64,000 nt of DNA from Desulfarculus baarsii DSM 2075 (GTDB lineage Bacteria > Desulfobacterota > Desulfarculia > Desulfarculales > Desulfarculaceae). Shown piece after piece: positions 39,997 through 59,271 of this stretch. The notes under the pieces were generated by a model. The model searched no databases, had not been told where the DNA came from, and saw only the letters and a program-made list of their open reading frames with translations. Numbering within the stretch: the first letter of the stretch is position 1; each line of letters opens with the position of its first letter. A program made the translations under genes and the position numbers. The DNA lies in contig NC_014365.1 in the NCBI RefSeq assembly GCF_000143965.1, positions 833,501 through 897,500 of the forward strand, written 5' to 3'.

Positions 39997-40151
39997 GGAA
40001 CTACCTCTCCTTTCTGAAAAATTGCCCTCCTTTTAAGATGTACCACAAAAAACGCCGATCCCAACCACCATCTGGGCGGTCGGGATCGAGCGATGGGAGA
40101 CGAGGCGACGGGCCGCCCGAAGGCGATCCCGCCGCCCCCCGGTCTGTCTTG

Positions 40152-40358
40152 AGAGTGCGGCACGGGGGCATCCTGCCCCGTGCTGCATCGGCTTGGCAAA
40201 AGCGCGGTTTTGCCAAGCCTCGCAAATCGCCCGCCTAATCAGGCTCGCGATTTGGCGCGCCGTCCCTGGCGCGCTTCGGCTGCTGCACGGTAACATGTAT
40301 GTTTCACAGGTTATTATCTGTTTTTACAACATTTGTTATGTTGCACCGTGCAGCAGCC
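40152..40358 (-). mobile_element. 207-bp MITE-like element made of five hairpins
   Basis: On the minus strand it begins GGCTGCTGCACGG and ends CCCCCGTGCCGCACTCT, the same ends as the 39-bp insertion at 59191-59229. Flanks share five of eight bases (GTCTT core, 40144-40151 and 40359-40366), consistent with a decayed 8-bp duplication. Inside are consecutive stems: about 40157-40186, 40190-40219 (12 bp perfect), 40223-40254, 40255-40274 and 40278-40358 (19 bp with a 2-base bulge). It contains no plausible gene and lies directly after the icmF stop. The rest of the gap (39997-40151) shows only the DUF2179 leader. Confidence 0.65.
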
Positions 40359-40363
40359 TCGTC

Positions 40364-43300
40364 TTACATGCCCCGGCGGTACATGCCGCCCACGTCGTAG
40401 AGGGCCTTGGTGATCTGGCCCAGCGAGCAGTGGCGCACGGTGTTGATCAGCTCGGCGAAGATGTTGCCGCCGTCCAGGGCCACCTGCTGCAAGTTGTGGA
40501 GGGCGGCCGGGGCCTGCTCGGCGTGGGCCCGATGGAACTGGGCCAAGCGCTGGAGCTGGCTTTGCTTTTCCTCCTCGGTGGCCCGGGCCAGTTCGACCAC
40601 GCACGGCTCTTGCTCCTGCTCGACCCCGGCGGGCAGGAAGGTGTTGACGCCGATAATCGGCAACTCGCCGGTGTGCTTTTGGATCTCGTAGTAGATCGAC
40701 TCGTCCTGGATCTTGGAGCGCTGGTAGCCCGTCTCCATGGCCCCCAGCACGCCGCCGCGGGCGGTCAGGCGGTCGAACTCGGCCAGGACGGCTTCCTCCA
40801 CCAGGTCGGTCAGCTCGTTGACGATAAAGGCCCCTTGCAGGGGGTTCTGATTCTTGGCCAGGCCCCACTCGCGGTTGATGATCAGCTGGATGGCCAGGGC
40901 CCGGCGCACCGACTCCTCGGTGGGCGTGGTGATGGCCTCGTCGTAGGCGTTGGTGTGCAGGCTGTTGCAGTTGTCGTAGATGGCGCAGAGCCCCTGGAGG
41001 GTGGTGCGGATGTCGTTGAACTGGATCTCCTGGCTGTGCAACGAGCGGCCCGAGGTCTGGATGTGATACTTGAGCATCTGGCTGCGCGGGCCGGCGCCGT
41101 AGCGCTCGCTCATGGCCACGGCCCAGATGCGCCGGGCCACCCGGCCGATGACGGTGTATTCCGGGTCCATGCCGTTGGAGAAGAAAAACGACAGGTTGGG
41201 CGCGAAATCGTCGATGTTCATGCCCCTGGCCAGATAATACTCCACGTAAGTGAAGCCATTGGCCAGGGTCAGGGCCAGTTGGGTGATGGGGTTGGCCCCG
41301 GCCTCGGCGATGTGATAGCCGCTGATGGAGACGCTGTAGAAGTTGCGCACGTCGTTTTTGATGAAAAATTCCTGGATGTCGCCCATCATGCGCAGGGCGA
41401 AATCGATGCTGAAGATGCAGGTGTTCTGGCCCTGGTCTTCCTTGAGGATATCGGCCTGGACGGTGCCTCGGGCGGTGCGGAGCACCCGCTCCATGATCTG
41501 GCGGCGCTCGTCGTCGCTGGGCTGGCGGCCTTGCTCTTGCTGGAATTTGGCCAGTTGCTGGTCGAGGGCGGTGTTGAAGAAAAAGGCCAGCATGATCGGC
41601 GCGGGGCCGTTGATGGTCATGCTGACGCTGGTGTTGGGGTCGCAGAGGTCAAAGCCGTCGTAGAGCACCTTCATGTCGTCGAGGGTGCAGATGCTAACAC
41701 CGCTGTTGCCGACCTTGCCGTAGATGTCGGGCCGCAGGTCGGGATCCCAGCCGTAGAGCGTCACCGAGTCGAAGGCCGTGGAGAGCCGGGCGGCCTTGGC
41801 GTCGCGGCTGAGCAGCTTGAAGCGACGGTTGGTGCGGAAGGGATCGCCCTCGCCGGCGAACATGCGGGTGGGGTCTTCGTCGGTGCGCTTGAAGGGAAAC
41901 ACGCCGGCCGTGAAGGGGAAGTTGCCGGGCAGGTTTTCGGCGCGCATCCAGGAATATATCTCGGCCGGATCCTCCCACTGGGGCAGGCAGACCTTGGGGA
42001 TGTCGAGCCCGCACAGCGAACGGGTGGTCAGCGGCACGCTGAACTGCTTGTCGCGCACTTTGTATTTGTATTTGCTGCCGGAGTAGGCCTTTTGCAACTG
42101 GGGCCACTGGGCCAAAAGCTGGTGGGTCCGCTCGCTGAGGCCTTCCTCGAGCTTGTGCACCTCGGCGCGCAGGGCGTCCAGGGCCGGCTTGCGCTCCTTG
42201 TCGCCCTGCCAGAGCTTGGCCAGATAGTCGTGGGTGTTTTTCATCTGCCAACTGCGGCGGACGAGCGCGGCCTGCTGGCGGGTTTTTTGGTGATAGCCAC
42301 GGATGGCCTCGGCGATCTCGGAGAGATAGCGCTCGCGATGGGCCGGCACGATGATGGTCTTGTCGGCGCTGCAATTGATGGCGGGCCGCTGGCGCGGCGA
42401 GGCGAACTCCACGCCGGTCTTTTGCCTGATCTTGTCCAGCAGGCCCAGGTACAAGGCCGTCACGCCGTCGTCGTTGAAGCGGGCGGCGATGGCCCCGTAG
42501 ACGGGCAGCGCCTCGGGGTCGACGTCCCACAGGCCGCGATTGCGCTGAAGCTGCTTGCGCACGTCGCGCAGGGCGTCCTCGGCCCCCCGGCGGTCGAACT
42601 TGTTGATGACGACGATGTCGGCGAAATCGAGCATGTCGATCTTTTCCAGCTGCGAGGCCGCGCCGAACTCGCTGGTCATGACATAGAGGCTGATGTCCAC
42701 GTGGTCGACCACCGCCGCGTCGCCCTGGCCGATGCCGGCGGTCTCGACCAGGATCAGGTCGAAGCCGGCCGCCCGGGTCACGGCGATGACGTCATCCAGG
42801 CCCTGGCTGATCTCCAGGCCGGAGCTGCGCGTGGCCAGCGAGCGCAGATAGACGCGTTCGGACTCCATGCTGTTGAGCCGGATGCGATCGCCCAGCAGCG
42901 CCCCGCCGCTCTTGCGCCGCGTGGGGTCGACGCTGATCACGGCCACGCGCTTTTGGGGGAAATCGTGCAAAAAGCGGATCAACAGCTCGTCGGTGAGGCT
43001 GCTCTTGCCCGCCCCGCCCGTGCCGGTGACGCCCACCACCGGGGCCGGCCGCTCGCCGATCAGCGGCTTCAACGCCGCCCGCCACTGGCTCATGTCTTGG
43101 CCGGCCAGGGCCGCCCGCTCCACCAGGGTGATGGCCCGGGCCACCAAGTCGGGACGATCGGCGCTCAGCTTGGCCAGATCGTTTGGCTTTTGCCCATTGC
43201 CCAGACTGTAGTCCACCGTCCGCACCAGGTGGTTGATCATCCCCTGCAGGCCCATGCGCCGGCCGTCCTCGGGCGAATAGATCTTGGTCACGCCATAGGC

Positions 43301-58423: not shown

Positions 58424-59271
58424 ATGAAGCGCCCATGGTTGTTTGGGCCTGGCGGCGGGGCTTTTGCTGGCGTTGGCCGGCGGCTGCGCCACGAAACCGC
58501 CGGCGGATGACGCGTGGCTGGCCGAGCGGCGCGCGGTTCCGGCGGCCACGGCCAAGCAGCGGCTGTCGCGCTACCCCGGCGTCAAGGCCGTCGAGGGCGA
58601 TCGGGTGATCTTCGCCGACGGCTCCAGCATGCCCTTTGACGACGGCCGGCCCAAGACCTTCGGCCAGGCCCTGGAAGACGCCGACATTCACGATCACTTC
58701 GCCCGGGCTTATCCGGCCTTCACGAACATCACCCCGCCGGCGGTCAACGACGACCCGGGGCGTTTGCGCTGCGACGCCTTTTTGAAAAAGCTCTACGGTC
58801 ACTCCAGGCAAGATATCGAGGCCAACCTGGTGGAGGTGACTTGGCCGCCCAACCACGGCGGAAAAAGCTGCTCTTCAACAAAAAGCAAAACGCCGCCGCC
58901 CAGTTGCAAAAAGCCTCCACGGCCCAGGAAAACACGCCGGGCGTCGATTTCAAATACCTGGTCAACATCGACAGCACCTATCAATACCGGCCCATCCAGG
59001 GCGCGACCCGCCTGAGCCCCCACAGCCACGGCATCGCCATCGAGCTGGAAAACAAATACACCTGTTATTGACTGTGGGACGAGCGATACAACTATCGCAA
59101 CGAGATCCCGCGCGATATCGTCGAGGTCTTCGAGGCGCACGGTTTCGTCTGGGGCGGCAGGTGGCGGCGCTACGACACCATGCACTTCGAGGCTGCTGCA
59201 CGGGGCAGGACGCCCCCGTGCTGCACTCTCACTTCGAATATCGGCCGGAAATGTTCGAGAGGGTGCGTTAG
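58424..59271 (+). pseudogene. Broken M15-family peptidase (lipoprotein), four lesions
   Basis: Remnant of an exported M15 (VanY/endolysin-like) D-Ala or L-Ala-D-Glu peptidase. Joined across frames it has a lipoprotein signal (GLAAGLLLALAGGC), NLVEVTWPPNHGGK, KLLFNKKQ, the zinc motif region SPHSHGIAIE and DTMHFEYRPEM. Lesions: an extra T in the start-proximal TTT (58442-58444) puts the ATG out of frame; one A is missing in the A-run at 58861-58865; TGA at 59069-59071 replaces an expected Trp; and a 39-bp element plus an 8-bp duplication splits the second zinc motif at 59191. The first two lie in homopolymers and could be sequencing errors; the other two are not. Confidence 0.85.
59191..59229 (+). 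mobile_element. 39-bp hairpin element with perfect 8-bp target duplication
   Basis: It interrupts the M15 gene within the codons for HFEYRPE. CACTTCGA occurs immediately before (59183-59190) and after (59230-59237); removing the element and one copy restores the conserved protein motif. It runs from GGCTGCTGCACGG to CCCCGTGCTGCACTCT and folds as a hairpin (GCACGGGGC/GCCCCCGTGC). The right 26 bases match the end of the 207-bp element at 40152-40358 with two differences, and the first 13 match its other end exactly. Confidence 0.85.

Follow-up and report, generated by a model that had tools for sequence, protein, structure and literature searches.

What interrupts a gene for an M15-type D-Ala-D-Ala carboxypeptidase of Desulfarculus baarsii DSM 2075 in the region of its zinc motif, where exactly does the intruding sequence end, and which kind of enzyme could have placed it there? 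These questions are raised by positions 59183-59237 of the window, that is, the whole stretch of 64,000 nucleotides analyzed here (NC_014365.1, positions 833,501 to 897,500). Read directly, this segment consists of CACTTCGA, 39 bp and a second CACTTCGA, and the folding of the insert beats 200 of 200 shuffles (z -3.4). The first-pass annotation rightly recognized the 8-bp direct repeat around a hairpin and regarded it as the target-site duplication of a 39-bp element. The features of the locus, with the ends that follow from the comparisons below, are these:

58443 to 59271, plus strand: the host gene, a decayed M15-type D-Ala-D-Ala carboxypeptidase, delineated from ORFs, PF13539 and intact orthologs
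59184 to 59188, strandless: target-site duplication ACTTC, left copy, 5 bp
59189 to 59230, minus strand: 42-bp short MITE, in which the left terminal hairpin directly joins the right terminal inverted repeat, reading GAGAGTGCAGCACGGGGGCGTCCTGCCCCGTGCAGCAGCCTC on the minus strand
59231 to 59235, strandless: target-site duplication ACTTC, right copy, 5 bp

The piece of the gene preceding the insert (59072-59185) matches PF13539 with an E-value of 7e-10. As proposed from the sequence at the outset, deletion of the element together with one repeat recreates the M15 motif, and the orthologous M15 genes of five relatives are open, read YDTMHFEYRPEMF without interruption and contain no insert; the absence of the 39 bases from these orthologs favors an insertion over ordinary gene sequence. 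The gene carries three lesions: its reading frame changes near 58860, a TGA stands in frame at 59069-59071, and 47 bp are inserted. Because the frame change and the TGA (58850-59071) are independent of the insertion, the MITE is not necessarily what killed the gene, which is dead apart from the insertion too.

With the insert as the query, about 30 matching places are found in the genome, most of which are left ends of an element 210 bp long. The family, viewed in the first-pass annotation as a single copy with its duplication, is indeed a transposon-type insertion at this locus but is not singular: counted from searches, and thus as a lower bound, there are at least 32 copies plus fragments in the genome, including about 25 longer copies and six short ones (41-46 bp). 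The 22 aligned full-length copies are 94-99% identical to their own consensus, and the 210-bp element has the left end GAGAGTGCTGCACGG and a right end that reads GAGGCYGCTGCACGG as its reverse complement. One full-length copy lies within the window:

40146 to 40150, strandless: duplication GTCTT of the full-length copy, left, 5 bp
40151 to 40360, plus strand: full-length 210-bp MITE copy
40361 to 40365, strandless: duplication GTCTT of the full-length copy, right, 5 bp

Genomes of the sister genus contain the same element with 5-bp duplications. In two of these (G006 and G011; L152 and L163), the element sits at a shared site, flanked in both by AATTC duplications, and this orthologous insertion predates the split between them. 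A second hairpin, akin to the left terminal hairpin, GCACGGGGGCAGGCGCCCCCGTGC, lies immediately downstream of one shortened MITE copy in D. baarsii (G000:C1:427077-427101; L093) and is perhaps a decayed neighbor. The single match to GGCTGCTGCACGG, at 795668 (L121) was discarded as a chance match because the second end is absent. A plasmid search yielded no match to the full element, and a literature search for the family by name found nothing.

The comparison of the copies settles where the element ends. Anchored at GAG and CTC, 26 of the 32 copies are flanked by an exact 5-bp duplication, and none by a duplication of 6, 7, 8, 9 or 10 bp; in 20,000 shuffles of the partners, the maximum number of matching duplications is three. 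Since these duplications lie outside GAG...CTC, the window element is 42 bp long (GAGGCTGCTGCACGGGGCAGGACGCCCCCGTGCTGCACTCTC, GAG...CTC between two ACTTC) and its target is ATGC-ACTTC-GAATAT. The ACTTC repeat looks like the 8-bp CACTTCGA because the element starts with GA and terminates with C, so that the match of the three additional bases is coincidental. A geometric expectation puts the share of true 5-bp duplications that would appear to be 8 bp or longer at about 5%; the duplication of the copy L105 seems to be 9 bp long, and the short copy L102 along with several longer copies have no duplication. The initial reading, a 39-bp element moved by a transposase that generates 8-bp duplications, is barely credible: the 8-bp direct repeat is literally present, but the family ends assign the outer GA and C to the element itself, and 8-bp duplications at these ends are absent from all 32 copies whereas 26 have exactly five. 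The proposal that an 8-bp duplication narrows down the transposase families is unsupported for the same reason. The total of element and duplication is 47 bp whether partitioned as 39 + 8 or as 42 + 5, and hence the empty site is identical under either partition. The duplicated bases on the right-hand side are 69% A+T, compared with 66% G+C for the window, which is a target preference.

These elements are short and non-coding (210 bp, and 42 bp for the short copy in the window), have terminal inverted repeats, are multi-copy and flanked by target-site duplications of one constant length (exactly 5 bp for 26 of 32 copies), and share their ends with an autonomous element, namely, IS5-family ISs of the same bacterial family, none of which is intact in this genome. 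A 5-bp duplication is given by Tn3 elements too, and non-autonomous miniature derivatives of these, known as TIMEs, have been described (PMC4133298). That the family is TIME-like is extremely unlikely, and this identity was rejected: although it is non-autonomous as well, there are no matches to the Tn3 transposase (PF01526) in the D. baarsii genome, and the ends start with GAG and agree with those of IS5-family ISs. The ends of Tn3 elements, in contrast, are long and of the GGGG type.

The first-pass annotation had proposed to search for other copies, for their duplications and for an IS with the same ends; these searches indicate an IS5-family transposase and 5-bp duplications. Among the DDE_Tnp_1 (PF01609) transposases gathered from 20 genomes of the bacterial family, one group scores 235-246 bits against NF033581 (IS5_4), for which the cut-off is 140, and is located between GAG...CTC ends. 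IS5-family members are known to produce several other duplication lengths, and it is four complete ISs only that here back a 5-bp duplication for an IS5-family partner, each having an exact one: AAATA (G014), ACCTT (G019), CAGTT (G017) and TCATT (G004). No duplication flanks either of the two IS copies in G001. The IS end GAGGCCGATGCACGGTG (G014) is identical to the right end of the MITE, GAGGCTGCTGCACGGTG, in 15 of 17 positions, and GAGAGTGCTGCACAG (G001) matches the left end in 14 of 15; in the sister genus g7, all 15 positions of the transposase end GAGACCATTGCACGG in G013 agree with the MITE ends of that genus (G009).

The original observation that no transposase is found near the insertion holds, and an intact transposase of the matching family is missing genome-wide: there is no match to PF01609 and no protein match in the D. 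baarsii genome, and among the matches listed, no two inverted ends are spaced like those of an IS, as an autonomous copy would require. A partner in the same genome, which is a supporting rather than strictly defining attribute of an IS5-family derivative, is represented in D. baarsii by a relic only. This relic (G000:C1:1356787-1356987; L420:2287-2487) comprises about 67 residues of an IS5-family transposase, has 40% identity to the G014 enzyme and lies 1.4 kb from L102, a short MITE copy that has no duplication. Given that an intact partner is absent from D. baarsii, the link to the transposase depends on the end sequences of the ISs in relatives and on the length of the duplication. Under the proposed mechanism, a DDE transposase of the IS5 family (NF033581, IS5_4 type) would recognize GAGnnnnnTGCACGG ends, cut with a 5-bp stagger and mobilize the MITE in trans; the lineage would have subsequently lost the enzyme, with the relic remaining. 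Judging from the compared sequences, the family is very probably an IS5-family MITE mobilized in trans, with the 42-bp form as a deletion derivative and the transposase since lost. For the window copy, we infer that an IS5-family transposase moved it and was then lost from the lineage, and the MITE family looks orphaned in D. baarsii.

How, then, did a 42-bp form emerge from a 210-bp element? In the orientation of the element, the short form consists of hairpin 1 joined to the final bases of the right end. A direct repeat of about 10 bp, CCGTGCAGC(A), is present in the left hairpin of the full element and again in its right terminal repeat, at exactly the two places that are joined, so that one deletion between direct repeats yields the 42-bp form; most likely, such a deletion, with the loss of about 165 bp, would have produced it. 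The sister genus has a short form of its own, 41 bp long with the duplication AGAGT (L297 in G006). The run of G in its hairpin comprises four G, as in its own genus, compared with mostly five in the short forms of D. baarsii; because each genus's short form carries the G-run of that genus, the short forms appear to have arisen repeatedly. Alternatively, the 42-bp form could itself be mobile, having been cut out and inserted as a pair of terminal repeats that almost touch, which would make it one of the smallest MITEs. We consider this a less probable, if realistic, scenario. It retains both ends that the transposase needs, and perfect 5-bp duplications flank five of the six short copies in this genome (the window copy and four others) as well as one in the sister genus. 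However, such closely spaced ends may be difficult to synapse; furthermore, the short copies have no derived substitutions in common and track the full-length sequence of each genus, as predicted by repeated deletion in place. With zero derived variants in common among the D. baarsii short copies, in-place deletion and transposition of the short form are not separable with certainty. On the basis of the copies compared, we favor deletion in place, or recurrent deletion, over a transposed short form as the probable origin. Two of the short copies are perfected palindromes, L101 with two right ends and L102 with two left ends, as hairpin-templated correction would give.

The long copies contain, in addition to the ends, a core of four hairpins. 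In the full-length copy of the window, these are:

40156 to 40187, plus strand: core hairpin 1, the left terminal hairpin and the portion retained in the 42-bp form, delineated from alignment A1 and pair counts
40190 to 40219, plus strand: core hairpin A, GGCTTGGCAAAA-loop-TTTTGCCAAGCC
40223 to 40254, plus strand: core hairpin B, CAAATCGC...GCGATTTG
40255 to 40274, plus strand: core hairpin C, GCGCGCCGTCC..GGCGCGC

Across 29 sequences from D. baarsii and related genera, 20 of the 38 pairs of the core vary on both sides with the pairing retained. Pairing is observed in 96% of the cells; the corresponding figure for shuffles is 84%, and it does not exceed 50% once the pairing is shifted out of register. 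Excluding the loop-closing pairs, G-U accounts for about 1% of the cells or less, and the compensatory changes are nearly all Watson-Crick, so the rarity of G-U points to a core that is maintained as DNA palindromes rather than RNA. Strong conserved hairpins could also suggest a REP/BIME-type palindrome spread by a RAYT (Y1) enzyme, or a structured RNA. This interpretation is very unlikely given the exact duplications and terminal inverted repeats, the near-exclusively Watson-Crick compensation, and the lack of any Rfam match for the window copies or for the elements of other lineages. REPs are not known to have target-site duplications; RAYT-mobilized REPs and BIMEs resemble the MITE family in being palindromic repeats but differ in this respect. 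In G009, G011 and G001 (L155, L167, L168, L174, L185, L186), the loop of hairpin C harbors, at the same point, an extra small hairpin GGGGTCCC...GGGGTG, a possible nested repeat.

None of 14 loci of GAG-ended ISs contains the core, and the idea that it is left over from the matching ISs was rejected on this ground. It does occur beyond the family. The core model matches 14 of the 395 sampled genomes of the phylum, several other families among them, and stretches that match a short pattern derived from hairpins B and C number at least 120 across named genomes, mainly Deltaproteobacteria and Nitrospirae MAGs, along with one Magnetococcales MAG; in nearly all the retrieved loci with this pattern, the whole core is present. 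The core-bearing elements elsewhere (L199-L221, L279-L298, L299-L378) have CAGG...TTGAAAAA ends and 4-bp CTAA/CTAT duplications. Among the 37 elements with CAGGATGTTGAAAAAG...GTTTTTCAACACCCTG ends, 13 are flanked by an exact 4-bp duplication of the CTAA/CTAT type and none by a duplication of any other length; in a separate set, such 4-bp duplications flank eight of 16. These differently ended elements come from other Desulfobacterota, Nitrospirota and, with one match, Magnetococcales. Several core elements in G001 with AGCTTGCTGACAAAG...TTTGTCAACAGCCT ends (L169, L170, L171, L172 and L174) lie between two near-identical copies of a whole terminator-like hairpin (17-35 bp, approximately), which looks as though insertion had duplicated an entire terminator.

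A conserved core common to elements with differing ends and duplication lengths is the unexpected part of these observations. We suggest, tentatively and aware that the idea may well be wrong, that the core is maintained by selection for a function and forms a module in its own right, which non-autonomous transposons have combined with two or more kinds of ends (GAG with 5-bp and CAGG with 4-bp CTAA-type duplications) and thus presumably with different IS5-type transposases; it would promote their mobility or tolerance via hairpins of DNA, not RNA. An equally tentative explanation is that the compensatory changes are non-functional and that hairpin-templated correction, that is, quasi-palindrome template switching, a mechanism described in E. 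coli (PMC7202029), keeps the palindromes perfect. The perfected palindromes L101 and L102, with their right/right and left/left ends, are in line with such correction, but on its own it fails to explain the conserved bases of loops and spacers and the order of the hairpins, which is constant across phyla. Hence hairpin-templated correction could be behind much of the covariation in the core, yet not the loops or the hairpin order.

Compared with known systems, the family is closest to IS5-derived MITEs: like these, it is short, non-coding and present in many copies, with terminal inverted repeats common to IS5-family ISs of relatives and with target-site duplications, and its mobilization in trans would be of the same kind; it differs in the 5-bp duplication and in the four-hairpin core, which is found outside the matching ISs and is common to elements with other ends. 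TIMEs are similarly non-autonomous and flanked by 5-bp duplications but have different ends, and the Tn3 transposase is missing here. Geobacteraceae, which are related bacteria, likewise have intergenic families of multicopy palindromic sequences, described in their genomes as putative elements with a regulatory or RNA role (PMC2700814, PMC2996986, PMC3543383) and set beside the MITE here by description only.

The feature in the window, then, is a MITE remnant of an ordinary kind, its ends now corrected. The correction from 8 to 5 bp illustrates how the ends of an element can extend a duplication by coincidence and misdirect the assignment to a transposase family; an orphan MITE family is also tied, via relatives, to its likely IS5-type enzyme. 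The interiors of MITEs are commonly taken to be unconserved filler. In this case, conservation reaches further for the interior than for the ends, with covariation in the form of Watson-Crick palindromes in several phyla, and it is thus directly testable whether internal DNA structure adds to the success of MITEs.
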